Of a stretch of 64,000 nt of DNA, positions 2,806-62,917 are shown piece by piece (the stretch's first letter is position 1; each line of letters starts with the position of its first letter). The translations under genes were made by a program, and so were the position numbers. Origin of the DNA: Haloplanus sp. CK5-1. Its GTDB lineage: Archaea; Halobacteriota; Halobacteria; Halobacteriales; Haloferacaceae. The notes under the pieces were generated by a model. The model did no database searches. It was not told the origin of the DNA and worked only from the letters and a program-made list of their open reading frames with translations. The stretch is from NCBI RefSeq assembly GCF_037201915.1, contig NZ_CP147505.1, positions 1,860,001 through 1,924,000 of the forward strand, in the 5' to 3' direction.

Positions 2806-2871
2806 TCGGGTGGGTTGCAGTTCTACATAAAACCCTCCGATTGTGTGTCGATGACACGATCGGAAATCGGG

Positions 2872-2913: not shown

Positions 2914-2918
2914 AGTAA

Positions 2919-2927
2919 CCTTTAACC
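2919..2927 (+). promoter_or_regulatory. TATA-like element of dnaK
   Basis: The stretch CCTTTAACC is centred about 31 nt before the dnaK ATG at 2954. That places the likely transcription start within a few bases of the start codon. This supports ATG 2954 over the longer in-frame option at 2885, which would lie upstream of the promoter. Confidence 0.55.
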
Positions 2928-2953
2928 GATCTAAACCGGTAGTCACTGGCAAG

Positions 2954-4849: not shown

Positions 4850-4860
4850 TCGTCGGCGAG

Positions 4861-4872
4861 CCACGTTTTTCA
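4861..4872 (+). terminator. Possible T-run terminator after dnaK
   Basis: A run of five T follows the dnaK stop by about 15 nt. T-rich stretches are typical archaeal transcription termination sites. No hairpin is needed or seen. The assignment is weak because the following AAATAG stretch could instead be the dnaJ promoter. Confidence 0.3.
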
Positions 4873-4903
4873 AATAGGTAGGACCGGTAACTCACACCAA
4901 CTG

Positions 4904-6765: not shown

Positions 6766-6808
6766 CCTCCAGCAAATCCTTTTGTTGTCCCGCCCACTAT
6801 CAAGCGGT

Positions 6809-7390: not shown

Positions 7391-7602
7391 GTCCGGTCGT
7401 CGAGGAAGTCGGTGCTGAACGCGAGCCACGCGAGCACCGTCGAGAAGAGGATGGGCGGCAGGATCGCGAAGGCCCAGAGGGGTTCGATGCCCCAGAAGAG
7501 CAACAGGAGTACGTCGGCGAGGCCGAGCATCAGGAACGGCGTCACCGCGAGGAGGGCACGGCGACGGTTCGGGGTCGACTCCTCCCCCTGCGAGAGTGAC
7601 AT
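7387..7602 (-). CDS. Small two-helix membrane protein, unknown function
   Basis: This 71-residue protein has a short polar N-terminus and two hydrophobic helices, ALLAVTPFLMLGLADVLLLL and LWAFAILPPILFSTVLAWLA, followed by a short acidic tail. The loop carries a conserved-looking FWGIEPLW motif. The size and layout recall small permease-associated membrane proteins, but I cannot assign a family. The start at 7602 is preferred over 7656 because the longer N-terminus is unlike a membrane protein leader. It is convergent with the GNAT gene and divergent from the cytidine deaminase gene. Confidence 0.75.
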   Translation of the reverse strand: MSLSQGEESTPNRRRALLAVTPFLMLGLADVLLLLFWGIEPLWAFAILPPILFSTVLAWLAFSTDFLDDRT

Positions 7603-7696
7603 AGTCGGACTCTGCGTTCGACGGGCAAAAACACCTCGGGTGTCCGGCGGCGCCACCCCCTCCAGATATATATCCGTCTCGACCGTAGCGTCGGCC

Positions 7697-8113
7697 GTGA
7701 CCGACGAACTCGTCGACCGCGCCAGAGAGACGCTCGACTCGGCGTACGTCCCCTACTCGGACTATCCGGTCGGGGCGGCGCTTCGAACCGCCGACGGAAC
7801 GGTGTTTACGGGCTGTAACGTCGAGAACGCGAACTACAGCAACAGCCTCCACGCCGAGGAGGTGGCGCTCGGTCGGGCGGTCACCGCCGGCCACCGCGAG
7901 TTCGACGCGCTGGCAGTCGCCTCCGGCGCGCGCGACGGCGTCACGCCCTGTGGGATGTGCCGCCAGTCGCTCGCGGAGTTCTGCCACGACGACCTCCCGA
8001 TCCTCTGTGACGAGGGCGACGGGGACGTGGCCGAGTACACCCTCGGCGAGTTGCTCCCCGCGACCATCAGTGCCGACACGCTCGACGCGGCCGACCGATC
8101 CGGGGAGTCCTGA
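7697..8113 (+). CDS. cdd: Cytidine deaminase
   Basis: This 138-residue homotetramer-type cytidine deaminase converts cytidine or deoxycytidine to uridine for salvage. Zinc and catalytic motifs are visible: NSLHAEEVAL (His and catalytic Glu) and TPCGMCRQSL (two Cys). The substrate region VGAALRTADGTVFTGCNVENANY is canonical. GTG 7697 gives the normal family length; no nearer ATG precedes the conserved sequence. It is followed by the uridine phosphorylase gene, the next step in pyrimidine nucleoside breakdown. Confidence 0.93.
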   Translation: MTDELVDRARETLDSAYVPYSDYPVGAALRTADGTVFTGCNVENANYSNSLHAEEVALGRAVTAGHREFDALAVASGARDGVTPCGMCRQSLAEFCHDDLPILCDEGDGDVAEYTLGELLPATISADTLDAADRSGES

Positions 8114-8170
8114 TCGGTCACACGCCTCGGACCCCGGCGCTATTTCACCGCCGTCACCGTACCCACGGCC

Positions 8171-8977
8171 ATGGGTGACGACATCGATCGACAGTATCAC
8201 ATCGAGGCGGCGTCGGGCGAGGTGGCGGAGACGGTGTTGCTCCCCGGCGACCCGGACCGCGTGGACGTGGTGACCGACCGCTGGGACGAGGCGACGACCG
8301 TCGCCGACCACCGCGAGTACCGGACGGTCACCGGCCGGTACGAGGGTGCCCCGCTGTCGGTGACCTCGACCGGCATCGGAAGCCCGTCGGCGGCCATCGC
8401 CGTCGAGGAGTTGGCCCGGATCGGCGCGGAGACGTTCGTCCGCGTCGGCTCGTGTGGCGCCATCGACCCCGACGTCGACGTGGGTGATCTGGTCATCACG
8501 ACCGGCGCGGTCAGGGGCGAGGGGACGAGCGACGAGTACGTCCGCGGGGACTACCCCGCCGTCGCCGACCACGCGGTGGTGTCGGCGCTCGTCGCCGCGG
8601 CCGAACGCCTCGGCTACACCTACCACTGTGGCCTGACGATGAGCACCGACAGTTTCTACGCCGGGCAAGCCCGCCCCGGGTTCGAGGGGTTCGAGGCCGC
8701 CGGGAGCGCGTCCCTACTCGACGACCTGCGCGAGGTGGACGTGACGAACGTCGAGATGGAGGCGAGCGCCGTCCTGACGCTCGCGAACGTCTACGGGCTC
8801 CGCGCCGGCGCGGTGTGTACCGTCTTCGCCAACCGCTCGACCGGCGAGTTCCGCACCGAGGGCGAGGCCCGCGCCGCCGAGGTCGGGAGTCTGGCGGCCG
8901 CGCTCCTCAACGAGATGGACGCCCGTCGGGACGACGCCGGGGCGGGCGCGTGGCACGCCGACCTCTCGATCGAGTGA
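8171..8977 (+). CDS. udp: Uridine phosphorylase / nucleoside phosphorylase
   Basis: This 268-residue PNP_UDP-family enzyme phosphorolyses nucleosides to base plus ribose 1-phosphate. Family landmarks are VLLPGDPDRVD near the N-terminus, TSTGIGSPSAAIAVEELARIG, VRVGSCGAIDPDV and NVEMEASAVLTLANVYGLRAG, which holds the ribose-binding Met-Glu. Placement just after cdd fits conversion of cytidine to uridine and then uracil. Specificity for uridine rather than purines is inferred from sequence resemblance and context. The gene has its own A/T-rich element (GCTATTTCAC) upstream. Confidence 0.9.
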   Translation: MGDDIDRQYHIEAASGEVAETVLLPGDPDRVDVVTDRWDEATTVADHREYRTVTGRYEGAPLSVTSTGIGSPSAAIAVEELARIGAETFVRVGSCGAIDPDVDVGDLVITTGAVRGEGTSDEYVRGDYPAVADHAVVSALVAAAERLGYTYHCGLTMSTDSFYAGQARPGFEGFEAAGSASLLDDLREVDVTNVEMEASAVLTLANVYGLRAGAVCTVFANRSTGEFRTEGEARAAEVGSLAAALLNEMDARRDDAGAGAWHADLSIE

Positions 8978-9060
8978 GGAGTGTCAGCACCGATCGTCGA
9001 CGAACGACCGTCTGCTGGCGGTTTCAACACCCCTATACCTGCCCGCGGCGGAGTGGGCGT

Positions 9061-10239
9061 ATGACCGCTCAGGTCGTCGTTCTGGGTGCCGGGTACGCTG
9101 GTGCCGGTGCCGTCTCACGCTTCGAAGAGATGAACGACGGTGACGCCGAGTTGACCTGGATCTCCGAGCACGACTACCACCTCGTCCTCCACGAGACCCA
9201 CCGTGTCATTCGCGACACGAGCGTCGCCTCCAAGGTCGCCATCCCCGTCGACGAGATCAAGTCCACCGCGACGACGTTCCGACAGGACCGCGTCACGGGC
9301 ATCGACGTCGACGACCGGCAGGTCCACTGCCGTGACGGTGACCCCGTCGACTACGACTACTTGCTCGTCGCACTGGGGAGTCGGACCGCCTTCTACGGGA
9401 TCGAGGGGCTCCGCGAACACAGCCACACGCTCAAGGGACTCGAGGACGCCCGCGAGATCCACGACGACGTGGCTGCCGCGGCGGCCGACGCCACCCGATC
9501 GGATCCCGCACAGGTCGTCGTCGGCGGGGCCGGTCTCTCGGGTATCCAGTCCGCGGGCGAGATTGCGGCCTATCGCGACGAACACCGCACGCCGATCGAC
9601 GTGACACTCGTCGAGGGCCTCGACGAGGTGCTCCCCGGTCGAGACCCCGAGTTCCAGGGCGCACTCAGGAAGCGACTCGAGGCCGCCGACGTCGACATCA
9701 TGTGTGGCGAGTTCATCTCGAAAGTCGACGACGAGACGATCTACGTCGGCGGCGGCGAGGAGGAAGACCCGACCGAACTCGACTACGACGTACTCCTCTG
9801 GACCGGTGGCATCACCGGTCAGGACGAACTCGACGAGGCCGCGGTCGACAAAGACGAGCGGAGCAACCGACTGTACGCCGACCGCGACTTCCGGACGAGC
9901 GACGACCGGGTGTTCGCCATCGGCGACACGGCGATGATCGATCAGGGACCGGAGGAGTTCGCGCCGCCGACGGCACAGGCCGCGTGGCAGGCCGCCGACG
10001 TAGCCGGGGAGAACCTCGCCCGTGCCGTTCGTGGCGAGGAACTCGCGACGTGGCGGTACGACGACAAGGGGACGCTCGTCTCGGTCGGCGACGAGGCGGT
10101 CGCCCACGGCGTCGACGTCCTCCCGATCGACACGTTCGGCGGTATCGGCGCGGAGACGCTGAAGAAGATCGTGGCGACACGCTGGATCGCGGACGTCTCC
10201 TCGATCGGTCGAGCGATCGACGCCTGGTCCGATATGTAG
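9061..10239 (+). CDS. Type II NADH dehydrogenase-like FAD oxidoreductase
   Basis: This 392-residue flavoprotein has two dinucleotide-binding folds. The N-terminal FAD site is VVVLGAGYAGAGAV and the central NAD(P) site VVVGGAGLSGIQSAGEIA. The segment RVFAIGDTAMI is the second FAD-contacting motif. The overall pattern fits single-subunit NDH-2 enzymes, which pass electrons from NADH to quinone at the membrane without proton pumping. No transmembrane helix is obvious; membrane association would be through the C-terminus. A CTATACC element about 28 nt upstream supports ATG 9061. Confidence 0.88.
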   Translation: MTAQVVVLGAGYAGAGAVSRFEEMNDGDAELTWISEHDYHLVLHETHRVIRDTSVASKVAIPVDEIKSTATTFRQDRVTGIDVDDRQVHCRDGDPVDYDYLLVALGSRTAFYGIEGLREHSHTLKGLEDAREIHDDVAAAAADATRSDPAQVVVGGAGLSGIQSAGEIAAYRDEHRTPIDVTLVEGLDEVLPGRDPEFQGALRKRLEAADVDIMCGEFISKVDDETIYVGGGEEEDPTELDYDVLLWTGGITGQDELDEAAVDKDERSNRLYADRDFRTSDDRVFAIGDTAMIDQGPEEFAPPTAQAAWQAADVAGENLARAVRGEELATWRYDDKGTLVSVGDEAVAHGVDVLPIDTFGGIGAETLKKIVATRWIADVSSIGRAIDAWSDM

Positions 10240-43732: not shown

Positions 43733-43799
43733 CGTCCGGTGAAAGGACGGTGGTAACTAAACGTTGTTCCCCGAACGCGACCCCGAACCCCCGTTTCTG

Positions 43800-45107
43800 T
43801 CAGTCTCGAGCGACGTTCAGGTCCCGCTGGACGTCTTCGGTGAACGCGTCGTCGACGTCGATGGCGGTGCCCGTGTTCCGGATCGTGTTCGTCGCGACCA
43901 CGCCCGACGCTCCGGACCGGATACGGATGCCCGCGGCCTCGCAGTCGTTGATCGCGTTGCCCGTGACGGTGAAACTGTACGGGCGTCGCTCCTCGCGTGG
44001 GTCGGTGTCCGCGGCGTCTGCGGGCACCGTCCGGGAGATGAACCCGACCTCGCAGTTCTCGATCTGATTGCCCGAGACGGTGATGTCGTAGGACGTGGCC
44101 GCGGGCGTGCCGGCGACCGCCTCGCTGAGGTGGGTCTCCTTGTACTCGATTTCGATTCCCGCCTCGCCGCCGGGATCGCCGCCGAACTTGTTCAGATTCC
44201 GACAGACGTTGCCGACGATCGTCCCCTGTTGGGCCGGCGAACACGCGATCAGGCTGTGACCGCCGTCGAAGACGACGTTGCCCACGACGGCGAAGTTGCT
44301 GACGTTGTAGGTGGCGATGTTGTTGAACTTCATCCCCGAGACGCGGTTCTCGGCGACGACCACGTCGGTCGAACGCTTCAGGTCGCGGTCGCCCCCCTCG
44401 GGCGCGCCCCGACTCGTGATCCCGTACCAGTTCGGGTTCACTACCTCGTTGCCCCGGACGACCACGTTCTCACAGCCGGTGAAGGAGAGCGCCATCTGGA
44501 ACCCGTTGACCGTCCGGTTGTTCGCGATGAGGACGCCGGTGCAGTCGTCTGCCTGAACCGCGTGGCTGTCCAGTTGCGTGCCCGCACCGTCGAACTCGAC
44601 GTTCGTGACGGCGGCGTTGTCGCCGCGCACCCGGATCAGGTCGTGACCCCTCGGCAGGGGGTTCTCCTGGTCGTCGGTCGGGAGTGGATCGTCCCGGCGT
44701 CCGACCTGTGATCCGACGAAACGGGTTCCTCGCTGTCCCGTCAGCGCGGTGTCGTCCCCGAGGGTGGCCGGCCCGCCGAAGCGGAACGTGTCCGCGGCGG
44801 CGACGACGGTCCCGCCCCCGTCCGGGACGGCGTCGAAGGCGTACTGGAACGCCTCCTCGGCGTTGCCGTCCGCGGTCGTCCGGAACGCGACGCCGGTGCC
44901 GTCGGTGACGCGGTACTGGCCGTTCTCCCGGTAGACCAGAGACACCGCCCCGCTACGCACCGGATCGCTCCCCATCTGTGCCGCGCCGTTCCCGGTGAAC
45001 GCCCCGAGTCCGGCGGCCGATCCGACGCCCGCGACGAACGACCGGCGGGTCGACCGCCAGTCGGAGACGCGCGAGACGAGTCCCGTTTCGCTGGTGTCGT
45101 CTGCCAT
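43800..45107 (-). CDS. Tat-exported right-handed beta-helix protein
   Basis: This 435-residue protein starts with a twin-arginine signal (RR at 21-22 in STRRSFVAGVGSAAGLGAF). The rest is a series of short repeats such as TVVAENRVSGMKFNNIA, VVGNVVFDGGHSLIA and TVSGNQIENCEVGF, the parallel beta-helix pattern of NosD/pectate-lyase-like proteins. It is predicted to act outside the cell, perhaps on polysaccharide, but catalytic residues cannot be identified. ATG 45107 immediately follows an in-frame GTG. Confidence 0.85.
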   Translation of the reverse strand: MADDTSETGLVSRVSDWRSTRRSFVAGVGSAAGLGAFTGNGAAQMGSDPVRSGAVSLVYRENGQYRVTDGTGVAFRTTADGNAEEAFQYAFDAVPDGGGTVVAAADTFRFGGPATLGDDTALTGQRGTRFVGSQVGRRDDPLPTDDQENPLPRGHDLIRVRGDNAAVTNVEFDGAGTQLDSHAVQADDCTGVLIANNRTVNGFQMALSFTGCENVVVRGNEVVNPNWYGITSRGAPEGGDRDLKRSTDVVVAENRVSGMKFNNIATYNVSNFAVVGNVVFDGGHSLIACSPAQQGTIVGNVCRNLNKFGGDPGGEAGIEIEYKETHLSEAVAGTPAATSYDITVSGNQIENCEVGFISRTVPADAADTDPREERRPYSFTVTGNAINDCEAAGIRIRSGASGVVATNTIRNTGTAIDVDDAFTEDVQRDLNVARD

Positions 45108-45354
45108 CACGCAGACCTGTCCCCGATCCGATCATAACCCTATATAATAGCCGTCCGGACGGTCACCGCCGGGTCCCGAGCGGTCCGAACCTGGTACCGG
45201 CCCACCCCGATATCCACCACCACTCCGTGGGGAACAATAGCGCTACCGAGAGCCACGTTCGTCTCCCGACCGACACGAACCCCTCACACGACTACACCCC
45301 CGAATATATCAATATTACAATAGTTAATGTCCTCTCGGTCGCTTCGTTCGCGTG

Positions 45355-46533
45355 ATGTCGGAGAAACACTCCGGACGACGGCGACGATTCCTGAAACTAT
45401 CGGCGGCCGCCGTAGCGACCGGCCTGGCGGGTTGTGCCGGTGGGGCCGGCGGTGGCGGGAGCGAAAGCGGAAGCAACGACGTCAGCGGCGGGTCGGGGTC
45501 GGGCGACTCGATGCTCGCGGACGCATCGAGTTTCGACCCCGCCGACCCGGGCTGGGAGGAGAACAACTACCTTTCGGGGCCGCTGATCGATTCCGGGTAC
45601 GAGCGCGGCGGTCAGTCGGACCTCGAGAGTATGAGCAATCGGGAGGTAGAGGAGGTGCCCCACGGCGACCCGGTCCGGGACTCCCCTGAGGACGAGAGCG
45701 AGTATCTCGACCCCGATACGCTGATCTTCACCGAGAGCCCAAGCGAGGACGTCGAGGGCCGCTACGAGGAAGACTTCCAGGCTGTCTTCGACCGCATCGA
45801 GGAGGAGACGGGCAAGCCGGTCGAGTACAACCGGGTCAACAGCTACGCCGCCTCCGTCGAGGCGATGCGCTCCGAACGCGCACACATCGCCAACTTCTCG
45901 ACCGGGACAACGTGTTTCGCGGTCAACCTCTGTGGCGCGGTGCCCTTCGCGGCCGGCGTCGCCCCGGACGGTGCCTTCGGCTACCGCCTGTTCGCCACGA
46001 CGCGGGCCGATGCGAGCAGTATCCAGTCCGTCGAGGACTTCGCGGACGACGACGTCCGGATGGCCCACGCCGAACCGGCCTCGAACTCCGGCCACCAGGC
46101 CCCCTCGGCGCTGTTCGACCAGTACTTCGACGTGACTGCGGGCGAGGACTACGAGATCAACTTCTCGGGCGGCCACTCCCAGACCACCCGCGGTATCGCC
46201 GCCGGCGACTACGACGCCGGCCCGATCTGTTCGACCTGTTTCAAGGACACCGTCGAGGGCGACAGCAACCTCGGCTACGACGACTTCAAGGTCGTCTGGG
46301 CGTCCGCCCCGTTCCCCAACGGTCCGATCGCCTACCGCTACAATCTCCACCCGGACATCGTCGAGGGCATCGAGGCGGCGTGGCTCGACTCCGACTTCGC
46401 GGGAACCACCTACGCCGACCGCACCGGCTACGACGAGTACGTCCCCGTCGAGTACCGGCGACACTGGTACGACATCATGGTCATCCAGCGGTACAACGGC
46501 GTCGAGTATACGCAGAGCGCCCTGAGCGAATGA
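45355..46533 (+). CDS. phnD: Phosphate/phosphonate ABC transporter substrate-binding lipoprotein
   Basis: This 392-residue protein has a Tat-type signal ([16 protein letters not shown]) and lipobox LAGC with Cys27, so it is a membrane-anchored binding protein. A Gly/Ser linker follows. The body has a PhnD-type type-2 binding fold: [43 protein letters not shown] and [19 protein letters not shown]. Its stop overlaps the ATP-binding gene. In haloarchaea such systems may import phosphate or phosphite as well as phosphonate. Confidence 0.92.
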
Positions 46534-47372
46534 CCCTCGAAGCGATCGACCTGTCGAAGACGTACCCGACCGGCGACGAGGCGCTGCGGGGCGTCAGCCT
46601 CTCGATCGAGGGGAGCGAGACGGTGGCGATGATCGGTCCCAGCGGCGCTGGCAAGAGCACGTTCGTCCGGTGTGTCAACCGCCTCACGGAGCCGACGAGC
46701 GGCACGCTTCGCCTCGACGGGACGGAGCTGACGGCACTCGACGCGGACGGACTCCGGGCGGCCCGCCGCGACATCGGGATGATCTTCCAGGAGTACAACC
46801 TCGTCGAACGGCTCACCGTGATGGAGAACGTCCTCACCGGTCGGTTGGGCTACGTCTCGGCTTGGCGTGCGTTCCGGCGCGACTTCCCACCCGAGGACGT
46901 CGAGCGTGCCTACGAGATCCTCGACCGCGTCGGCCTCGGCGACATGGAGGACAAGCGCGTCGACGAACTCTCCGGCGGGCAGCGCCAACGGGTCGGCATC
47001 GCGCGAGCCGTGATCCAGCAGCCGAAGATCCTGCTGGTCGACGAGCCAACCTCCAGCCTCGACCCCGAGACGTCGAACACGGTGATGGACCTCCTCACCG
47101 ACATCGCGGCCGAGCGGGGCATCCCCGTCCTGATCAACATCCACGAGGTCGACCTCGCACTGGAACACGCCGACCGCGTCGTCGGGCTCCACGACGGCGA
47201 ACTCGTCTTCGAGGGGACGCCCGGGGACTTGGACGAGACGGCGCTCGGTCGGGTCTACCGCGGCGAGGAACCCCCCGATTCGGAGGTGTCGGAGCCGACG
47301 GACGATCCGTCGTCGGGGCCGACACTCGGCGTCCCCGAACAGCCGGATCGGTCGATTCCGGGAGGGTCTTGA
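46530..47372 (+). CDS. phnC: Phosphate/phosphonate ABC transporter ATP-binding protein
   Basis: This 280-residue ATPase energises the importer. Walker A is [14 protein letters not shown], the signature is [15 protein letters not shown] and Walker B is [13 protein letters not shown], with the switch His in INIHEVDLA. It has a C-terminal Pro/Asp/Ser-rich tail of about 30 residues beyond the usual family end. Its start overlaps the phnD stop (ATGA). It is followed by the two permease genes. Confidence 0.95.
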
Positions 47373-47373
47373 C

Positions 47374-48174
47374 GTGGCCGCCGGCGAACGAACCTGGCAG
47401 CGACCCAGCGTCTTCGGCCGTCGCGAGATCAAGTGGGGCGTCTACGCGGCCGTCGTCGCCTTCTTCGCGTGGTCCGCGCTGGGGATCGGTGCGGACCCCT
47501 CGCGGATCGTCCGGGGGCTGGGCCGAGGCGTGACGCTTCTGGGAGACTTCTTCCCGCCGGACGCGACGCCGAGACAGGCACAGCGCATCGTCGACAAGAT
47601 GATCGAGAGCGTCGCGATGGCGATGGTGGCGACGGTCACCGGTATCGCACTCAGCGTCCCGATAGCCTTCATGGCGGCGGAGAACCTCTCACCCACGCCG
47701 CTGTACTACCTCAACCGCGGGTTCATCTCCATCTCGCGGGCGTTCAACGCCATCATCGTCGCCATCCTCGTCGTGAAGGCGGTGGGACTCGGCCCGCTTG
47801 CCGGCATCGTCACGATCACGTTCAAGACGGTCGGCTTCTTCTCGAAACTGCTCGCGGAGGACATCGAAGACATCGACGGGGGGAGCGTCGACGCGGTCCG
47901 CGCGGCCGGCGCGTCGCCCCTCCAGACGCTGCTGTACGGCGTCGTCCCACAGATCGTTCCGCGCTTTGCCGGGCTGTCGGTCTACCGCTGGGACATCAAC
48001 ATCCGCACCTCGACCGTCGTCGGCATCGTCGGCGCTGGCGGCATCGGATCGGTCCTGCTCACCGCATTCAACCGCTACGACTACCAGTACGTCTCGGCGA
48101 TCCTGCTCGCCATCGTTCTGGTCGTCCTCGTCGCGGAGGGCGTGAGCGCGGTCGTCAGACGGAGGTACCAGTGA
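47374..48174 (+). CDS. phnE: PhnE-type ABC permease (first)
   Basis: This 266-residue inner-membrane permease has about six hydrophobic segments, beginning WGVYAAVVAFFAWSALGIG. The EAA-like loop is AVRAAGASPLQTLLYGVVPQ, which contacts the ATPase. It starts at GTG 47374, one base after the phnC stop. The final YRWDINIRTSTVVGIVGAGGIG segment is characteristic of PhnE. It is paired with a second, distinct permease. Confidence 0.92.
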   Translation: MAAGERTWQRPSVFGRREIKWGVYAAVVAFFAWSALGIGADPSRIVRGLGRGVTLLGDFFPPDATPRQAQRIVDKMIESVAMAMVATVTGIALSVPIAFMAAENLSPTPLYYLNRGFISISRAFNAIIVAILVVKAVGLGPLAGIVTITFKTVGFFSKLLAEDIEDIDGGSVDAVRAAGASPLQTLLYGVVPQIVPRFAGLSVYRWDINIRTSTVVGIVGAGGIGSVLLTAFNRYDYQYVSAILLAIVLVVLVAEGVSAVVRRRYQ

Positions 48175-48968
48175 TGTCGGGGGAGACCCGCAGTTGGGAG
48201 CGGTTCGATCGCCGCCGTCGACTCGGCCGCTCGATCGGCTGGCTCGTCGCGCTGGTCGTCTTCGTCGGCTCGTGGCAGTTCCTCGACATGGATCTGGTCG
48301 CAGCGGAGACGGTCCCACGGGAAGTGAACGACCTGCTGACGCGGATGTACCCGCCCGACGTGGCCTACGCGGGCGACATCGTCGCCCCGCTTATCGAGAC
48401 GCTCCACATCGCCGCGCTCGGCACCGCCGGGGCGTTGGTACTCGCAGTGCCGGTCGCCCTCCTCGCCGCCGAGAACACGACGCCCAACCGCGCGACCTAC
48501 TGGCTCGGGAAGGTGATCGTCACCGTCAGTCGCTCGGTGAACACCATCATCTGGGCACTCGTCTTCGTGGTGGTGTTCGGCTCCGGCCCGCTCGCCGGTG
48601 CCGTCGCCATCGCCTTTCGCTCGGTCGGCTTCCTCGGCAAACTCCTCGGTGAAGAGATCGAGGAGATCGACTTCGGGCAGGTCGAGGCGGTCCGTGCGGC
48701 CGGTGCGTCGCCAGTCCAGACACTCCTGTACGGCATCCTCCCACAGGTGAAGCCGGCACTAGTCGGGCTGTCGGTCTACCGCTGGGACATCAACGTCCGG
48801 GACTCGACGATCCTCGGGTTCGTCGGGGCCGGCGGGATCGGCGTTCAACTGTTCCGGGCGGTCAACGCCTTCGCCTGGGGGTCCGTGGCGACGATCCTCC
48901 TCGTGATCCTCGGCGTCGTGATCGCGAGCGAAGTGATATCCGCGTACGCACGGGGGCTGGTCCGATAG
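48174..48968 (+). CDS. phnE: PhnE-type ABC permease (second)
   Basis: This 264-residue permease is similar in layout to the preceding one. Segments include AVRAAGASPVQTLLYGILPQ and YRWDINVRDSTILGFVGAGGIG, but the N-terminal part differs clearly. ATG 48174 overlaps the previous stop. The two permeases probably form a heterodimer in the phnD-C-E-E importer. They look like an old tandem duplication. Confidence 0.92.
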   Translation: MSGETRSWERFDRRRRLGRSIGWLVALVVFVGSWQFLDMDLVAAETVPREVNDLLTRMYPPDVAYAGDIVAPLIETLHIAALGTAGALVLAVPVALLAAENTTPNRATYWLGKVIVTVSRSVNTIIWALVFVVVFGSGPLAGAVAIAFRSVGFLGKLLGEEIEEIDFGQVEAVRAAGASPVQTLLYGILPQVKPALVGLSVYRWDINVRDSTILGFVGAGGIGVQLFRAVNAFAWGSVATILLVILGVVIASEVISAYARGLVR

Positions 48969-49007
48969 CGTGACGATCATCAGCCTCCACCGGCTACTGG
49001 TGATCGG

Positions 49008-49706
49008 ATGACGCCACCGAGATCGTACGGCGACGCTGCGACCGACGGTCACGCCCTGCTGTTCGACATGGACGGCGTCCTGATCGAGGGCCGTGGGGCC
49101 GACGACGCGGTCCACGAACGCGCCCGCGACGACGCGCTCCGAGCGTTCGACGTCGAGGTGCCGGACCACCACCGCCCGGCGCTCGCGAGCTACGAGTACA
49201 CGGAGGCCTTCGTCGAGGCGTGTCGGGCCGTCGACCTCGATCCGGTCGAGTTCTACGCCGCCCGCGAGCGACACAGTGCCCGCCGGATCGTCGACCGACT
49301 CCGAGCCGGCGAACGCGGCCTCTACCCCGACGTCGACGCGCTCGATCCGATCGCCGACCGTCACCACCTCGGCCTCGTCAGCAACAACTACCATCCGGCC
49401 GTCGAGTTCGTCGTCGATCACCACGGCCTCGACGCGTTCTCCTTCGCCCGCGGCCGCGAGCCGGGGGTCGAGGGCTTCCGCCGCCGCAAGCCCGACCCCC
49501 ACTACCTGTTCGAGGGACTCGACGCCCTCGACGCCGAGGCGGGCTACTACGTCGGCGACCGCGAGACCGACCTCCTCGCGGCCGAACGCGCCGGTCTCGA
49601 GGGCGTGTTCGTCCGGCGCGACCACAACGTCGAGACACGTCTGGGCGTCGAGCCGGCCCACGAGATCGACTCGCTGTCGGACCTCGGCGATCTGCTCGAC
49701 CGGTGA
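49008..49706 (+). CDS. HAD-family hydrolase
   Basis: This 232-residue haloacid-dehalogenase-fold phosphatase has motif I ALLFDMDGVLIEG (catalytic Asp), motif II LGLVSNNYHP, a Lys in RRRKPDPHYLF (motif III) and GYYVGDRETDLLAAERAG (motif IV). A helical cap lies between residues 30 and 110. It resembles phosphoglycolate phosphatase-like enzymes. It follows the phn transporter by 39 nt, so a role in releasing phosphate is possible but not shown. Confidence 0.9.
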   Translation: MTPPRSYGDAATDGHALLFDMDGVLIEGRGADDAVHERARDDALRAFDVEVPDHHRPALASYEYTEAFVEACRAVDLDPVEFYAARERHSARRIVDRLRAGERGLYPDVDALDPIADRHHLGLVSNNYHPAVEFVVDHHGLDAFSFARGREPGVEGFRRRKPDPHYLFEGLDALDAEAGYYVGDRETDLLAAERAGLEGVFVRRDHNVETRLGVEPAHEIDSLSDLGDLLDR

Positions 49707-54741: not shown

Positions 54742-55512
54742 ATGTACATCGCAGACGAGACCTGGCCGGAACTGGGCGACTACTTCGCGGACGAGTCGCT
54801 GGCGCTCGTCCCCCTCGGATCGACGGAACAGCACGGCCCCCACCTCCCCCTCGCGACCGACCACCTGATCGCGGAGGCCTACGCCCGCGAAGCCGCCGAG
54901 CAGACCGGATTCCTCCGTACGCCGACCATCAACGTCGGCGTCAGCCCACACCACAGACAGTTCCACGGGACGATGTGGGTCGACGCCCCCGTGTTCCGGG
55001 ACTACGTCGAGTCGTTCACCCGCAACCTCGCGTACCACGGCATCGACCGCGTGATCTACGTCAACGCCCACGGCGGCAACGTCGACCACCTCCGCGAGGT
55101 GGGGCGTCGGCTCCGCGACGACGAGGCACTGTACGCCGTCGAGTGGATGTGGAACGACAGTATCCCCGAGTTGGTCGACGACCTGTTCGAGCAGAACGGT
55201 CCCCACGGCGGTCCGAAGGAGACGGCGATGATCCAACATCTCCACCCCGAGTTGGTTCGCGAGGACCGCCTCGCAGACGCCCGCGACGGTGGCGTACCGA
55301 ACGTCGAGGCGGCAGACACGATCAAACACGGCGCGCGGACCTTCTACGACGCCGCCGACAACACCGACAACGGCGTCCTCGGCGACCAGACCGACGCCAC
55401 CGCCGAGAAGGGCGAACGCATGTTCGAGGCGGCCGTCGACCAGCTCTGTCAGCTCTGTGACTGGCTCGACGACCAGCCCTTCGAGGATCTGCTGCCGAAG
55501 CCCCACGTCTGA
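54742..55512 (+). CDS. Creatininase-family amidohydrolase (possible ArfB-type deformylase)
   Basis: This 256-residue metal-dependent amidohydrolase has LGSTEQHGPHLPLATDHLIAE (His and Asp ligands), IYVNAHGGNVDHLREVGR and PHGGPKETAMIQHL. Archaeal members of this family, such as ArfB, remove formate in riboflavin and F420 precursor synthesis. Others act on creatinine-like ring amides. The specific reaction cannot be settled here. It is the last intact gene before the decayed segment. Confidence 0.87.
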   Translation: MYIADETWPELGDYFADESLALVPLGSTEQHGPHLPLATDHLIAEAYAREAAEQTGFLRTPTINVGVSPHHRQFHGTMWVDAPVFRDYVESFTRNLAYHGIDRVIYVNAHGGNVDHLREVGRRLRDDEALYAVEWMWNDSIPELVDDLFEQNGPHGGPKETAMIQHLHPELVREDRLADARDGGVPNVEAADTIKHGARTFYDAADNTDNGVLGDQTDATAEKGERMFEAAVDQLCQLCDWLDDQPFEDLLPKPHV

Positions 55513-55517
55513 GGGCT

Positions 55518-55778
55518 CTTGACCAGAGTGCCGTCTGCTTGACCGAGCGCGATCGCCATATCCGACCACCCGTCGTTCGTCACCGATGTCCACGTCTCGG
55601 GCACCTCGTCGAACGCGACCTCACCGACAGGGAACATCTTGACCGTGTAACTCCCGTCGTCGGCTGTCGTTTGGGTTTCAGTCTCGGTGTTTCACTCGGC
55701 AGGAGTCGCTCCGCTGTCGGACTGACTCACACAACCGGCGAGCAGTCCGCCGCCGATGACGGTTCGGCAACATATCAC
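55518..55778 (-). pseudogene. Decayed substrate-binding lipoprotein gene (iron/cobalamin-type)
   Basis: The minus-strand frame reads RTVIGGGLLAGCVSQSD (a lipoprotein signal and lipobox), a short Thr/Glu linker, then YTVKMFPVGEVAFDEVPETW and DMAIALGQADG. This is the start of an iron- or vitamin-B12-type ABC binding protein. A TGA at 55692-55694 interrupts it. After LVKS the similarity stops and the frame runs into the antisense of the creatininase gene, so the 3' part is gone. The start may be GTG 55778. Confidence 0.68.
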
Positions 55779-55866
55779 GCACACTATGATTCTTTCGCCA
55801 GATGAGGCAAGAGCCTTTCATGGCACTTACTGAACACAGCGAAACAGCGGTCCCACCTCACCATGC

Positions 55867-55880
55867 GTTCTAGTTTAGCG
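55867..55880 (+). repeat. Left terminal inverted repeat of the IS element
   Basis: GTTCTAGTTTAGCG. It matches the reverse complement of the right end at 13 of 14 positions. Confidence 0.8.
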
Positions 55881-55904
55881 AAGAATCCAACCGCCGTCTG
55901 TTGA

Positions 55905-57293
55905 TTGGATATCGTTGCAACTACCCGGTTGAGGAATCCGGTGGGAAGTGTGACCTATACCCCACCGGATTCGGTGATTGTTGACCGGATTCAAAGAGCG
56001 TTTCCCTCCGACGAGTTGCGCGAGCGCGCTCGCGCAACATCACTTGTCGAACGAGAGCGGAAGTTCGACATCGTTGCGCTATTCTACACGCTCTCGTTCG
56101 GTTTCGCCGCTGGATCAGACCGCTCTCTCCAGGCATTTCTCGAACGCTACGTCGAGATGGCTGACTGCGAGGAACTCTCTTACGCGGCGTTCCACGACTG
56201 GTTCGAACCGGGTTTCGTTGCACTCCTTCGAGAGATTCTCGATGACGCCATCGAAAATCTCGATACCGGACGAGCCGAGTTGAACGGACGTCTCGAACGC
56301 TTTCGAGACGTCCTCATTGCCGACGCAACTATCGTTTCGCTGTACCAGGACGCCGCTGATATCTACGCAGCAACTGGCGAAGACCAGGCTGAACTGAAGC
56401 TCCACCTCACAGAGTCACTCTCCACCGGCCTTCCAACCCGGTTCCGTACAACCGACGGAACTACTCACGACCGGAGTCAGCTACCCACCGGAGAGTGGGT
56501 AGCTGACGCCCTCATACTGCTCGATTTGGGCTTCTACGACTTCTGGCTGTTCGACCGCATCGACCAGAACGGCGGCTGGTTCGTCTCCCGCGTCAAGGAA
56601 AACGCGAACTTCGAGATCGTCGAAGAACTGCGGACGTGGCGGGGCAACAGTATCCCACTCGAAGGGGAGTCGCTGCAGGCCGTCCTCGACGACCTGCAGC
56701 GACAGGAGATCGACGTCCGCATCACGCTCTCATTCGAGCGCAAGGGAGGGTCGGGCGCCAGCGCGACCCGGACGTTTCGACTGGTCGGCCTGCGCAACGA
56801 GGAGACCGAAGAGTACCACCTCTACCTGACGAATCTCGGCAAAGACGACTATAGCGCGCCCGATATTGCGCAGCTCTATCGGGCGCGCTGGGAGGTCGAA
56901 CTGCTGTTCAAGGAGCTGAAGTCGCGGTTCGGCTTGGATGAGATCAACACGACCGACGCCTACATCATCGAGGCGCTGATCATCATGGCGGCAATTTCGC
57001 TGCTGATGAGTCGTGTAATCGTGGATGAGTTACGGTCGCTTGAGGCAAGACAACGAGAGGCCGAAGCCGCCGAAGACGCCGACTCGTCGGCGTCGCGGCT
57101 CCCCCGCCGTCGCTGTTCGCTAGCCGTCGAACGCCACGCTCATCTGATCCAGCTGTACCTCATGGTCGAGTTGGGCTACGAACTGCCAGATCTGGACGAG
57201 CTGTTGTTATGGGTGGCACGAAATCCAAATCCACACAGAGATCGGTTACGTGAGCAGGTTGAACGAGGTGAGTTCGGCTTTGACCGCCACTAA
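55905..57293 (+). CDS. IS4-family transposase (ISH8 group)
   Basis: This 462-residue DDE transposase has the first Asp in DVLIADATIVSLYQD and the second in LILLDLGFYDFWLFD. The Y-(2)-R-(3)-E-(6)-K signature with the catalytic Glu is YRARWEVELLFKELKS. It begins at TTG 55905, and GTG 55953 is another possibility. The reading frame is complete, in contrast to the broken genes around it. Its GC content is below that of the core genes. Confidence 0.93.
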   Translation: MDIVATTRLRNPVGSVTYTPPDSVIVDRIQRAFPSDELRERARATSLVERERKFDIVALFYTLSFGFAAGSDRSLQAFLERYVEMADCEELSYAAFHDWFEPGFVALLREILDDAIENLDTGRAELNGRLERFRDVLIADATIVSLYQDAADIYAATGEDQAELKLHLTESLSTGLPTRFRTTDGTTHDRSQLPTGEWVADALILLDLGFYDFWLFDRIDQNGGWFVSRVKENANFEIVEELRTWRGNSIPLEGESLQAVLDDLQRQEIDVRITLSFERKGGSGASATRTFRLVGLRNEETEEYHLYLTNLGKDDYSAPDIAQLYRARWEVELLFKELKSRFGLDEINTTDAYIIEALIIMAAISLLMSRVIVDELRSLEARQREAEAAEDADSSASRLPRRRCSLAVERHAHLIQLYLMVELGYELPDLDELLLWVARNPNPHRDRLREQVERGEFGFDRH

Positions 57294-57301
57294 ACTAGAA
57301 C
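57288..57301 (-). repeat. Right terminal inverted repeat of the IS element
   Basis: CACTAAACTAGAAC on the plus strand; its reverse complement differs from the left end at one position. It overlaps the stop codon of the transposase. Confidence 0.8.
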
Positions 57302-57302
57302 A

Positions 57303-57821
57303 GATGGGTGTTGGGCACATATTCTGCGAGAGGCTGAAGATGCCGCTGAGAAGCAGCCAGAAGGCAAACCGATTTACGACTCTCTCAAGCAGTTGTACGT
57401 CGCTCTCCAGACGCGGCTGGAGAGCGACTTGACTCTTCGTGAGCGAGCAGAACTCCAGCGTGTTGCACGAAGAGAGCTTGAGTCGCTGATTGAGCGGTCA
57501 GTTCCCGACGGACCAGTGGCAACACTCATCAAAAAGATCGAAGGAGGCCTCGACCACTGGCTCACCTTCGTCGGTGAGCCAGCGGTCTCTCCAACGAACA
57601 ATGCCGCGGAAAACGCGCTCCGTGAGCCGGTGGTTCTCCGGAAACTTATCGGAACACTCCGCAACGACCGTGGAATGTTCGCTCATGAGACGGTGCTGTC
57701 CCTGCTGGCGACGTGGCGCCAGCAGGGACGCAATCCCTACGACGAACTCAAGCGAGTCGCCCGAAACAACGAGATGCTTTCACGAGATCAGGCTGTGCCG
57801 GCCGTTGAGTCCTCGGAGTAA
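57303..57821 (+). pseudogene. 3' fragment of an IS66-type transposase
   Basis: The frame is open directly from the IS junction: CWAHILREAEDAAEK, then a helical stretch, then SPTNNAAENALREPVVLRKL with the catalytic Glu of the DDE domain and a normal C-terminus at 57821 (172 residues). The N-terminal and central domains are missing, and no matching 5' part is seen left of the ISH8-type element. So this is a remnant, not just an interrupted gene. The best match is the haloarchaeal ISH10-like group. Confidence 0.82.
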
Positions 57822-57825
57822 ACAC

Positions 57826-58932
57826 GTACGGCACATTAATTTCCTAACGTATATTGGTATACCGGCCGGAATTGGTTTATTTATATTATTAGTAAATGTA
57901 CTAGATACACAGCACGAACCGACAGTTACGGCTCGCCTATCCGGACAAGGGGAACAGTCTATGTCAGGAATAGATACAGACACCCCTGAATACAAAGCTT
58001 ATGTCCGAGATATGTGGAAGCGATCACTGGCGCAGTTTCTCAAACACCCGTTTCGAGCGATCACGCGTCGGCCACTCCGATCGTTCGCAGTAACCATTCC
58101 GGTTGCCGTTCTAAGTTTGGTGGTGATCGTGCTTTCCGGAGTCGCATCGCCATCCGTATCTGCCTATCAGGCGCAACCAATCTGGACGACGACGGTATTC
58201 GTCGTGCTCCCGTTGCTACTTTTGAGTAGTGGACTTATGCTTGTTTACGAGTTTAACCGCCGAGAGATTGCCGCGGTCAATCGTCGGTTCCCGGATGTGC
58301 TATCGTCGCTTGCAAGCGCCAATAAAAACGGCATACGGCTCGTCGATTGCATCACGCTGGTTACGAAGCGATCCGAGGGCGTACTGGCCCACCACTTGGA
58401 GCGATTAGAGGCGGATATTCGTGCGAATCGGGATGTGCATGATGCCTTATATCGATTTGCAACCGATGTCGGTGTCCCCAGAGTGACACGGGTTATCAAA
58501 ATACTTGTTGAAGCCGATAAATCAAGCGAGGATCTATCCGCGATATTAGAAATCGGGGCGCGAGATACGGAAGCACGGTTTCAGATTGATCTTGACCGAA
58601 AACAAGCGATGCAACCGTATGTGCTTATTTTCTTTATCGGGGTGTTGGTCTATTTGGGGATGATTCTTCTCCTCAACGAGTTGTTTTTTCCAATAGTTTC
58701 GGAGATCCCAGCAGGGGGATTCGGTGGCTTCACGAATACTGCTGGAACACCTAGTGAAGCCGAACCAGTACCGATAACAGCGTTTCAGACTGCGTTATAC
58801 CATTCTTCAATAATTCAGTCCTTCGGTAACGGATTACTCATCGGGAAGTTAGTTGATAATAATATTTTAGCCGGGATAAAATACGCTATTCCACTACTTT
58901 TGGCAACCCTCGTCGTGTTTCATGTCGTCTGA
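57826..58932 (+). pseudogene. 5'-truncated type II secretion F / PilC (TadC)-like pilus assembly gene
   Basis: The frame from 57826 to 58932 encodes about 368 residues. A membrane helix (FLTYIGIPAGIGLFILLVNV) comes first, then two more, a cytosolic T2SSF domain (NRRFPDVLSSLASANKNG, DALYRFATDVGVPRV) and final helices ending LLATLVVFHVV. Archaeal PilC/TadC proteins usually have two such domains, so the first half is missing. ATG 57961 is in frame and a shortened protein could be made. The region is clearly AT-richer than its surroundings. No pilus ATPase gene is nearby. Confidence 0.72.
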
Positions 58933-59162
58933 CTCGGTTACTGGTATCCAACTTTACTAAATAAATTGGCTCCTACCGAACGCAGCGGAATACCGTACGT
59001 TATCGTTCCATCTGTGTCAATGATCGTTGCGATGTTGCGCAACCCTTCGACGAGTGTCCGATACGATCAAACGGGGTCCACGACAAAGTGGCACCATCGG
59101 CAAGAGATCTTCTCACAAATCAAGAAAACGACGGCTAGACGGCGGCGAATCCACGGGAAACA

Positions 59163-60033
59163 GTCGATACGGATCCCCGGCCCCCGCTCCAAACTGATGT
59201 CCTCGTCCCGGTTGGTCACGACTACGTGTTGACTCTCGGGACGACGGATCAGGGCGGGTTAGACGACGCGGAGATAGCCACGACCGAGCGACTCGCAGTG
59301 AAGCTTGAAACAGCACTGGCCCGAATCAATCGCAACCGGTCGTTGGCCACGGACCGCCGGCAGGGCCTCCAAGGAACGAAGAGGCAAGCCGAAGCGGACG
59401 CTGCCGCGTTACGCCGCTTGAACGAACTCACGGTGGATCCAGCGGAATTTGACGAGACTGTCGACAGTTACTATCACTCGGCTGTGATCATCTCGGCCTC
59501 GATACGGGCATCCTCTCACACGTCGACGGAGACACTACGAGGTCGATGCTGTCGTCGATGCGACCGGGACACACGAGGCGGGCGCAGTGTCCGACCTCGG
59601 GGACACGATGTGCGATGAGACGCTCGCTTGCGACGCAACCGAATCGCTCGCGTTCGCCGACGTTGCAGACTCCGACCACCGGAGCCACCCAGCAGCCGAG
59701 ACCGTTCGTGCATACATCGCAGCCCCAGTCGTCGTCGACGGCGACGTCTACGGTACGCTAAACTTCTCGATGGGGGAACCACGTTCGGCGGCGTTTCGGC
59801 CGGCGGACGAAGAGTTCGTCACACTCGTCGCACAGTTGCTCGGTACAGCTATCCAACGTCGCCGCCGGGCTGAGGAGTTGGAGCGGTACGAGACGATTCT
59901 CGAAGCGGTCGACGATCCGGTGTACGCGCTGGACGCCGAGGGCCGGTTCACCTTCGTCAACGACGCCGCGCTCGAGTTCGGGGAGATGCTGAACGTGGAA
60001 CCGAGAGGGAATAACTCTCTCGCGACATGCTAG
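59163..60033 (+). pseudogene. Frameshifted GAF/PAS sensor gene remnant
   Basis: Sensor-type coding sequence continues through three frames. One gives DVLVPVGHDYVLTLGTT and LRRLNELTVDPAEFDETVDS. A second (around 59498) gives LDTGILSHVDGD. A third gives YEVDAVVDATGTHEAGAVSD, CDETLACDATESLAF, YGTLNFSMGEPRSAAFRPAD and the beginning of a PAS domain (YETILEAVDDPVYALDAEGRFTFVNDAAL). It then stops at 60033. At least two frame changes and missing ends mark it as decayed. Kinase or HTH output is absent. Confidence 0.68.
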
Positions 60034-60394: not shown

Positions 60395-60414
60395 AATTGA
60401 GTAGATATTCAATT
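60395..60414. promoter_or_regulatory. Candidate ArsR operator
   Basis: AATTGA (60395-60400) and TCAATT (60409-60414) form a perfect inverted repeat with an 8-nt spacer. It ends 8 nt before the arsR ATG. Its A/T-rich arms overlap the expected TATA/transcription start region. ArsR-family repressors bind such dyads and release them on As(III) binding. Confidence 0.6.
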
Positions 60415-60421
60415 GATTCTC

Positions 60422-60823
60422 ATGCCACAAGCAACGGAACGGCTCCGACGCTACCTCGAAGACGAACTCGGGGAGTGTCGTAGCGAGGACGTCGAGCGGC
60501 GACTCGACGAACTCGGGACGCTCGAAGCGGCGCTCGGGACTGCTCAAGTGGACGCCGAACTGACGGTCCTCTCGGCGCTCGCCAACGAGACGCGCTACAC
60601 GCTCGTTCGGGTACTCGTCGCAGCTGAAGAAGAGCTCTGTGTCTGTGAACTGAACGGCGTCGTCGACGTGAGCGAGAGCGGCCTCAGTCACGCCCTCTCG
60701 CAACTCGTCGAGGCTGGCCTCGTCGAGGGACGGAAGGACGGCCGCTGGAAGAAGTACCGGGCGACCAACCGCGCAGTGGCGCTCGTCACCGTCCTCGAAG
60801 GGAGCGTAACCATCGATGAGTAA
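60422..60823 (+). CDS. arsR: ArsR-family arsenic-responsive repressor
   Basis: This 133-residue winged-helix repressor starts MPQATERLRRYLEDEL and has the HTH core LANETRYTLVRVL and VDVSESGLSHALSQLVEAGLV. EELCVCELNG carries the Cys-Val-Cys metal-sensing motif. The remaining Cys residues are near the N-terminus (GECRSEDVERR). It is followed within the same unit by acr3 and two arsC genes. ATG 60422 is chosen over the in-frame ATG at 60413 because it follows the operator. Confidence 0.93.
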   Translation: MPQATERLRRYLEDELGECRSEDVERRLDELGTLEAALGTAQVDAELTVLSALANETRYTLVRVLVAAEEELCVCELNGVVDVSESGLSHALSQLVEAGLVEGRKDGRWKKYRATNRAVALVTVLEGSVTIDE

Positions 60824-61979
60824 CGTCGAACACCAGCACGGGCCGAACTGTAGCTGCGAGAGCTGTGGAGATCCGCGATCGATGGATTTCCTCGATAAGT
60901 ACCTCACCGTCTGGATCTTCGGCGCGATGGCGATCGGCGTCGGGCTGGGATTCGTTGCCCCGTCGGTCACGCAACCGATTCAGGACCTCCATCTCGTCGA
61001 GATCGGACTGATTCTGATGATGTATCCGCCGCTGGCAAAGGCGGACTACTCACAGCTCCGAGCCGTCTTCAGCAACTGGCGGGTTCTCGGATTGAGCCTC
61101 GTCCAGAACTGGCTCATCGGCCCGACGCTGATGTTCGGGCTCGCCGTGATCTTCTTCAGCGGGCTCGTTCCCGGTCTTCCCGCACGTCCCGAGTTCTTCC
61201 TCGGTCTCGTGTTCATCGGGATGGCCCGCTGCATCGCGATGGTACTCGTCTGGAACGAACTCGCGGAGGGCTCAACGGAGTACGTGACCGGCCTAGTCGC
61301 GTTCAACAGCCTCTTTCAGATCGTCACCTACGGGGTCTACGTCTGGTTCTTCGGACTCTTTCTCCCGCCGTTGCTCGGCATGGAGAGCCTCGTCGCCGGT
61401 ATCCAAACGTTCGACGTGACGCCGATGCAGGTGTTTCAGGCGATCGTGATCTTCCTCGGGATTCCTTTCGTCGGCGGATTCCTCACGCGGTACGTCGGCA
61501 CCCGAGCGAAGGGCCAGCAGTGGTACGACGACGAGTTCGTCCCGAAGATCGACCCGCTCACGCTCGTCGCGCTCCTCTTTACCGTCATCGTGATGTTCGC
61601 CACGCAGGGCGAGAACATCGTCGCGTCGCCGGGTGACGTGCTCCTGATCGCTGTGCCCCTCACGATCTATTTCGTCGTGATGTTCCTCGTGAGTTTCGGG
61701 ATGGGCAAGGGTATCGGCGCGGACTACTCGACGACGACGGCCATCGGGTTCACCGCCGCCTCGAACAACTTCGAACTTGCCATCGCGGTCGCTGTCGCGG
61801 TGTTCGGCGTTGGCTCCGGCGTCGCGTTCACCACCGTCGTCGGCCCACTTATCGAGGTCCCGGTGCTGCTCGCGCTGGTCAACGTCGCGCTCTACTTCCA
61901 GCGAAAGTTCGATTGGAGTGGTGCCACGACGGGCCAGCTTACACCGACTGGATCGGATCCAACTCCCGAGGACGATTGA
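60816..61979 (+). CDS. arsB: Arsenite efflux transporter ACR3
   Basis: This 387-residue membrane transporter has about ten helices. The N-terminal Cys-rich NCSCESCG stretch and VFIGMARCIAMVLVWNELAEG with the conserved Cys of ACR3 are visible. It extrudes arsenite from the cell. The start overlaps the arsR stop region by 8 nt. The segment AIGFTAASNNFELAIAVAVAVFG is also typical of the family. Clearly part of the ars operon. Confidence 0.95.
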   Translation: MSNVEHQHGPNCSCESCGDPRSMDFLDKYLTVWIFGAMAIGVGLGFVAPSVTQPIQDLHLVEIGLILMMYPPLAKADYSQLRAVFSNWRVLGLSLVQNWLIGPTLMFGLAVIFFSGLVPGLPARPEFFLGLVFIGMARCIAMVLVWNELAEGSTEYVTGLVAFNSLFQIVTYGVYVWFFGLFLPPLLGMESLVAGIQTFDVTPMQVFQAIVIFLGIPFVGGFLTRYVGTRAKGQQWYDDEFVPKIDPLTLVALLFTVIVMFATQGENIVASPGDVLLIAVPLTIYFVVMFLVSFGMGKGIGADYSTTTAIGFTAASNNFELAIAVAVAVFGVGSGVAFTTVVGPLIEVPVLLALVNVALYFQRKFDWSGATTGQLTPTGSDPTPEDD

Positions 61980-61994
61980 GCGCGCTACGATTCA

Positions 61995-62465
61995 ATGACT
62001 CATCAGACAGATTCTGTCGACCCCCTTCGTCTCGCGTTCGTCTGCGTGGAAAACGCGGGTCGAAGTCAGATCGCGACCGCCGTCGCCGAAACGCAACTTC
62101 GGATTCAGGACCGGACGGACGTCGAGATCCGCAGCGGTGGAACGGACCCTGCTGGAGAGATCTATCCGACCGTCGTCGACGTGATGCGCGAGAAGGGCTA
62201 CGATCTGTCGACTCGGACGCCGACACGGATCTCCCGTGAGACCTTGGGAGAGTGCGACGTCGTCGCCCTGATGGGGTGTTCGTTGTTGGTCGACGACCTC
62301 CCGGCGGGCGTGGTCGTCCGTGACTGGGGGTTCATCGATCCGGCGGATGCCGATGTGGAGTCCGTCTGGGCGATCAGTACGGAGATCGAACAGCGCGTCA
62401 TCGAACTGCTCGCTGACCTGCCGACTGAAGCGGAACGACGAACCAACACACACCAGCTACAATGA
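61995..62465 (+). CDS. arsC: Arsenate reductase-like low-molecular-weight phosphatase (first copy)
   Basis: This 156-residue LMW-PTPase-fold protein is predicted to reduce arsenate to arsenite. The P-loop CVENAGRSQ is followed by an Asp in VVVRDWGFIDP. A single Cys in VALMGCSLLVDD is present, but the second Cys of the classic thioredoxin-coupled pair is missing, so the electron pathway may differ. It lies 15 nt after acr3 and overlaps the next arsC (ATGA). Confidence 0.88.
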   Translation: MTHQTDSVDPLRLAFVCVENAGRSQIATAVAETQLRIQDRTDVEIRSGGTDPAGEIYPTVVDVMREKGYDLSTRTPTRISRETLGECDVVALMGCSLLVDDLPAGVVVRDWGFIDPADADVESVWAISTEIEQRVIELLADLPTEAERRTNTHQLQ

Positions 62466-62917
62466 CTGAACACAGCGACACCGATCCGATTCGAATCGCT
62501 TTCATGTGCGTCCAGAACGCTGGCCGCTCCCAGATGTCGACGGCCTTTGCGGAGCGCGAACGGGAGCGACGCGGACTTGAGGACCGCATCGAAATCCTCA
62601 CCGGGGGGACCCATCCAGCCGACCACGTACACGACGAGGTCGTTGAGATAATGGACGAAGCGGGATTCGATCTCTCCGACCGAACACCACGAGAGATCAC
62701 GCTGGACGAGCTCCAGTCCTGCGACTACGTCGCCACGATGGGGTGTTCGACGCTCGACGTCGGTGATGTCGGCGAGGACGTCGATATCCGAGATTGGGCA
62801 CTCGACGACCCGGACGGTCAGGATCCCGATCGAGTGCGCGAAATCCGCGACGAAATCGAGCGTCGGGTTAGTAGTCTGTTCGAGGAAATCGAAGACGCCG
62901 AGATTTCATCACCATAG
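62462..62917 (+). CDS. arsC: Arsenate reductase-like low-molecular-weight phosphatase (second copy)
   Basis: This 151-residue paralogue of the preceding gene has P-loop CVQNAGRSQ, GGTHPADHVHDEVVEIMDEAG, TMGCSTLDVGDVG and an Asp in VDIRDWALDDPDG. As in copy one, only one of the two resolving Cys positions is present. The pair may work together or have different substrates. The start overlaps the preceding stop, so all four ars genes are likely one transcript. Confidence 0.88.
   Translation: MTEHSDTDPIRIAFMCVQNAGRSQMSTAFAERERERRGLEDRIEILTGGTHPADHVHDEVVEIMDEAGFDLSDRTPREITLDELQSCDYVATMGCSTLDVGDVGEDVDIRDWALDDPDGQDPDRVREIRDEIERRVSSLFEEIEDAEISSP

Follow-up and report, generated by a model that had tools for sequence, protein, structure and literature searches.

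In Haloferax volcanii, part of the chromosome is described as having been inverted in vivo by recombination between two insertion sequence (IS) elements (PMC6063281, citing Hawkins et al. 2013), and for Halobacterium salinarum, transposon-triggered genome inversions and mixed populations are described (PMC6624760; see also PMC10264941). A counterexample to frequent rearrangement is the report of two Haloquadratum genomes without any inversion (PMC3119063). Elements of the ISH8 subgroup of the IS4 family are characterized as 1,400 to 1,800 bp long, with 5'-CAT ends, 10-bp direct repeats, and a YREK motif (PMC2266710). Among the papers listed in a literature search on Haloplanus complete genomes and insertion sequences, none had a title on a Haloplanus genome. 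Here, we describe a group of broken genes around an ISH8-type element in Haloplanus sp. CK5-1 and argue that the site is likely one of the two junctions of a 373,571-bp inversion between inverted, identical ISH8-type copies.

The window (the whole stretch of DNA analyzed, 64,000 nucleotides) covers positions 1,860,001 to 1,924,000 of the 3.24-Mb chromosome, which is represented by a single contig of 3,243,851 bp in an assembly that is 99.78% complete. Features are listed in Table 1 by window position; G and L numbers are our own handles for genomes and loci. The element in the window is 1,445 bp long and is one of four identical copies in the genome, the other three lying at chromosomal positions 2,290,878 to 2,292,322, 1,491,256 to 1,492,700, and 2,981,030 to 2,982,474. 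The window copy is on the plus strand and the copy at 2,290,878 is on the minus strand, so the two are oppositely oriented. The transposase matched the NCBIfam IS4 family model NF033592 (2.6e-82, above the cut-off) and contains the YREK motif (YRARWEVELLFKELK), the exact spacing of which is Y-2-R-3-E-6-K. The terminal repeats are imperfect (21 of the first 32 positions agree), with CAT reading inwards from both ends. The ends start with CATGCGTTC and CATCTGTTC, both of which fit the 5'-CAT consensus, and the length falls within the range given for ISH8 (PMC2266710, Table 1 for the length). One of the four copies, that at 1,491,256 to 1,492,700, is flanked by a 10-bp direct target repeat (CGGGTTCGAT), and the other three have no repeat of their own. 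Judged from its sequence by size, ends, 10-bp repeat, YREK motif, and HMM family match, the element is an IS4-family element of the ISH8 type.

Table 1. Features at and around the left and right junctions of the window copy (positions are those of the window)
Feature	Position	Strand	Evidence
Creatininase-family gene, intact, native edge of left junction	54742..55512	+	PF02633 1.4e-72; beside NAC-side DNA in 11/11 congeners
5' remnant of ABC-transporter substrate-binding-protein gene, in-frame stop	55513..55769 (start approximate)	-	Homology, three-frame translation
Left half of target duplication, CCCACCTCAC	55852..55861	.	10/10 identical to right flank of the 2,290,878-2,292,322 copy
ISH8-type IS4 element, complete	55862..57306	+	CAT ends, imperfect terminal repeats with GTTCTAGTTTAG
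Transposase, 462 aa	55905..57293	+	DDE_Tnp_1; Y-2-R-3-E-6-K motif
3' part of IS66-type element, cut at IS boundary	57307..57829 (right end within 57829-57832)	+	DNA identity, NCBIfam
PilC/T2SSF-like gene, C-terminal half	57833..58932	+	T2SSF 1.7e-12; natural stop at 58930-58932
GAF/PAS sensor remnant, frame-broken, truncated in PAS	59226..60033	+	GAF 1.9e-10, PAS_8 7e-07 in 59587-60030
ArsR-type regulator, ACR3 arsenite exporter, two ArsC-like proteins, open genes	60413..62917	+	acr3 1.1e-112

The flanks of the four copies (10 bp on each side, read in element orientation) were compared over all copies. The window copy has CCCACCTCAC on its left and GGTGTTGGGC on its right, which agree at only 1 of 10 positions; it is therefore without a target duplication, and the complete element with its full-length transposase bears out the initial annotation of an apparently intact ISH8-type element lacking one. 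The copy at 2,290,878 to 2,292,322 has GGTCGAACAC on its left and CCCACCTCAC on its right, whereas that at 1,491,256 to 1,492,700 has a clean 10-bp duplication (CGGGTTCGAT on both sides) and the flanks of that at 2,981,030 to 2,982,474 (ACGGAGAAGG and CGAAATCACC) match no other flank. Among the 12 left-right pairs between different copies, there was a single 10/10 match, that of CCCACCTCAC, and the rest agreed at 5 or fewer positions; the chance of this pairing was estimated at about 3e-5 at 66% GC. The sharing of CCCACCTCAC by two oppositely oriented copies is the signature of an inversion between them, and rearrangement would explain the missing duplications of the three copies. A search of the genome for other copies as recombination partners, which had been proposed for this site, thus led to the copy that carries the matching half of the duplication. 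The reciprocal flanks, GGTCGAACAC and GGTGTTGGGC, do not match. Because of this mismatch, a plain inversion between two insertions is insufficient, and one further event has to be invoked.

The exchanged flanks could also have arisen in a single intramolecular replicative transposition, in which a copy with flanks x and y moves into a target T (CCCACCTCAC) and makes a new copy and an inversion together. Such an event yields the arrangements T-IS-y and x-IS-T, as observed, and is in keeping with the absence of an own duplication at three of the four copies. Elements of the IS4 family are cut-and-paste transposers, however, and would not be expected to give a replicative product, and the donor copy would keep its unmatched flanks; we consider this origin very improbable. 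There is an equally slight chance that the transposase itself, and not homologous recombination, made the exchanged flanks, with an ISH8-type element copying itself within the chromosome and producing single-step inversions and adjacent deletions. If so, transposase-driven copying would also explain the unmatched flanks at three of the four copies.

Gene order was compared with that of relatives. The creatininase region was read in all 11 same-genus genomes and the gcvT region in 10 of them, G004 being left out with its gcvT 605 bases from a contig end. In Haloplanus sp. CK5-1, the creatininase gene and the NAC gene are 374 kb apart, and each adjoins one IS copy. In all 11 congeners, creatininase is followed by the NAC-side DNA (in CK5-1, from 2,290,080 downwards, ending beside the second IS copy), with a gap to the match of 8 to 64 bp in five genomes (G003, G004, G007, G008, and G011) and of 568 to 632 bp in the other six. 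The first genes of this DNA encode a NAC protein (PF01849, 7.2e-17) and a GCD14-like tRNA methyltransferase; both were also found 3' of creatininase at locus L031 and, after a short extra frame, at L032. On the other side, gcvT (PF01571, 1.9e-77) adjoins the second IS copy in CK5-1. The CK5-1 genes at 1,935,716 to 1,940,713, which sit 18 to 23 kb rightward of the IS copy in the window, have homologues divergently upstream of gcvT, 0.6 to 6.2 kb away, in 5 of the 10 congeners (G003, G006, G008, G010, and G011); this neighborhood was not found near gcvT in the other five within the stretch read (3.7 kb upstream only in G007). The distance and relative orientation of creatininase and gcvT differ among congeners, showing that gene order varies in the genus. 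Un-flipping positions 1,917,307 to 2,290,877, a segment amounting to 11.5% of the chromosome, restores both neighborhoods and the CCCACCTCAC duplication at once.

The relatives thus show a gene order that the present junctions disrupt, and the present order was seen in none of the 11 at the creatininase side. Together with the exchanged flank, this supports the initial annotation in reading the site as deletion or recombination between mobile elements, and it rules out a simple insertion without duplication. Several genes in the region are independently broken, as would be the case had an element simply inserted into degenerate DNA that decayed in place, its duplication lost later by point changes or deletions; but the left flank is perfectly matched at an IS copy 374 kb away, where the sequence following creatininase in relatives is also located, and the gene order in 11 of 11 relatives already contradicts such a history, which we regard as negligibly probable. 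More weight attaches to an artifact of assembly, a misjoin at the identical 1,445-bp inverted repeats, or to a population with both orientations of which one was recorded. The identical copies exceed short-read length, and it is un-flipping that brings back the 10-bp duplication and the neighborhoods of the relatives. Nevertheless, the genome is one contig of high completeness, and the second flank pair is unmatched even in the un-flipped order, so that a rearrangement associated with the IS would have to be assumed either way; misassembly or a mixture of isomers is therefore unlikely. The preferred reading remains a true inversion, and the identity of the IS copies suggests that it is recent and perhaps still reversible.

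At the left junction, the nearest named relatives of the creatininase are those of Haloplanus sp. LUM.53 (93%) and Haloplanus ruber (90%). Beyond it, 56 aa encoded at 55515 to 55682 matched 49 plasmid records; of the 10 that were listed, 9 carry the match in a gene annotated as "ABC transporter substrate-binding protein," with 53 to 64% identity over up to 53 aa; the 62-aa piece had no Pfam match. The homology ends at about 55524 to 55530, 12 to 18 bp from the creatininase stop. The start of a binding-protein gene described earlier is thus present as a minus-strand 5' remnant, but it is not what the IS breaks: the element lies about 90 bp upstream of the remnant without cutting it, and the interrupted sequence is the IS66 element to its right. 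The NAC side carries, next to the second IS copy, an insert of 802 bp with 48% GC. In a DNA-level search of the CK5-1 genome, neither the remnant nor this insert had a second copy, and the matches in 39 other genomes were all short (152 bp or less) and all fell in the left remnant. Un-flipping joins the left remnant and the 802-bp stretch into a small insert of foreign DNA that separates creatininase from NAC; in the 11 congeners, no match to either was found at this position.

At the right junction, IS66 homology starts at the first base after the ISH8-type element, and the tail has 80 to 86% DNA identity to elements in 3 of the 60 genomes searched (G005, G016, and G039). The frame at 57393 to 57821 matched the NCBIfam IS66 model at 2.5e-26, with 92.7 bits against a curated cut-off of 180, the low score being what a fragment would give. 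The IS66 tail noted earlier is thereby confirmed, and the ISH8-type element interrupts the IS66 element. The PilC-like half that follows aligns to residues 378 to 734 of a 737-aa homologue; the gene therefore runs through to its own stop and lacks just its front, in agreement with the second half of a pilC-like gene reported at first. This fragment sits in low-GC DNA and has at best 36% identity to a gene of another genome (39 other genomes), and the CK5-1 genome still has pilC paralogues in open frames, two of 688 and 705 aa and a third, weaker one of 660 aa. Of the three-frame GAF/PAS sensor proposed for the next interval, a remnant was recovered in the frame at 59587 to 60030, which covers GAF in its C-terminal part and PAS_8 over its first 33 positions; the upstream frame, from 59226 to about 59615-59618, had no Pfam match, so the three frames are borne out only in part.

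The arsenic genes lie in the same stretch of lower GC content (0.616, versus 0.677 for window positions 1 to 54700). After ACR3, at 61995 to 62917, there are two adjacent, different ArsC-like genes, both well below arsenate reductase cut-offs. The GC content of the inserted stretches is 0.48 to 0.62, in comparison to 0.68 to 0.69 on both native sides, and on this basis the broken-gene region resembles one margin of an approximately 18-kb acquired island. Parts of the same island (CK5-1 positions 1,922,939 to 1,933,913; 77 to 93% DNA identity) are also present in G006 (L140, about 1190 to 8960), where they lie on the other side of gcvT-gcvH in another arrangement with the MarR/PemK-like pair. 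This placement suggests a recurrent insertion spot near gcv.

The second IS copy, at 2,290,878 to 2,292,322, cuts a MarR-like regulator gene. In G006, this gene has an open frame, and a PemK-like gene comes after it (a weak match, 0.0033, below the curated cut-off). With the G006 sequence as the query, neither the remainder of the MarR-like gene nor the neighboring PemK-like gene was found in the CK5-1 genome, where nothing extended past the known 374 bp; the seven other matches of the query were a NikR-like gene (named by eye) and pieces of 39 to 100 bp outside the missing MarR/PemK part. Similarly, the front of the IS66 element was not found in the genome with the front of a relative's element as the query (one weak match of about 80 bp), nor was a separate front half of pilC with a homologue as the query (three matches, all within the 688-, 705-, and 660-aa frames). 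These searches used sequences of relatives and could miss diverged pieces. Because all three parts were not found, an IS-associated deletion is also likely, and it probably took place in addition to the inversion. Its simplest form would be a deletion by recombination between a pair of ISH8 copies in direct repeat, or one made by a single copy in the DNA next to it, before or after the inversion. The initial annotation had proposed the loss of a pilus/secretion and a sensor locus. This is right in part: the IS66 front, the pilC front, and the MarR-like rest with its PemK-like neighbor were not found in the genome; loss of a native pilus locus is not required, since the pilC fragment is at most 36% identical to a gene in the 39 other genomes and of low GC content and the paralogues remain.

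A history that accommodates these observations would have three steps: (i) an ISH8 copy would have inserted into the small foreign insert between creatininase and NAC, duplicating CCCACCTCAC; (ii) beside gcvT, one ISH8 copy in the MarR-like gene and another in an IS66 element that had inserted into a pilC-like gene would have recombined, or one of them would have made an adjacent deletion, removing the intervening DNA and leaving a copy with the unmatched flanks GGTCGAACAC and GGTGTTGGGC; and (iii) homologous recombination between the resulting inverted copies would have flipped the segment, giving the two present junctions. We infer homologous recombination as the agent, as well as the order of the steps and the detail of the second.

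The other two copies and one further part of the window provided separate observations. The copy at 1,491,256 (L112, 1,483,001 to 1,501,000; IS at 8256 to 9700) disrupts an SNF2-type helicase gene whose product resembles DISARM DrmD and BREX helicases, below NCBIfam cut-offs. Its neighbors are a PbeA/Dnd-type helicase-like gene, a methyl-directed endonuclease/HNH-like gene, and a gene for an 862-aa Cys-rich protein that had no match in the two libraries tried; by these predicted functions, L112 is possibly a defense island that the IS has inactivated. The copy at 2,981,030 (L113, 2,973,001 to 2,991,000; IS at 8030 to 9474) truncates a short unknown open reading frame, and beside it is an integrase gene (PF00589) that, judged by eye, seems to be interrupted by an IS6-like fragment; for the 701 bp to the left of this copy, the matches in other genomes were all short, none exceeding 76 bp. 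At 43774 to 49040, the window holds a phosphonate-type ABC transporter block (binding protein, ATPase, and two permeases, named by eye) that is absent at that place in G004, G007, G008, and G010, where the flanking matches are 65 to 213 bp apart. At least part of this block is present in G006.

What looked like a heap of broken genes is therefore best read as a base-exact record of a large inversion, and to find the rearrangement partner it sufficed to compare, within one closed genome, what flanks each copy of a single IS. The features of the element that were tested all agree with those given for the ISH8 subgroup in PMC2266710. As in the H. volcanii case described in PMC6063281, IS-IS recombination would here have inverted part of a haloarchaeal chromosome; that inversion was detected in vivo, whereas the Haloplanus inversion is deduced from exchanged flanks and the gene order of relatives, with an additional IS-associated deletion proposed. 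With the ISH rearrangements described for H. salinarum (PMC10264941 and PMC6624760), it has in common ISH8-type elements, 10-bp duplications, and inversions; it differs in genus and in that three of the four Haloplanus copies are unmatched, with one pair that can be matched exactly. IS-mediated inversion is thus already known in haloarchaea, and the Haloplanus case is a new and well-resolved instance of it.
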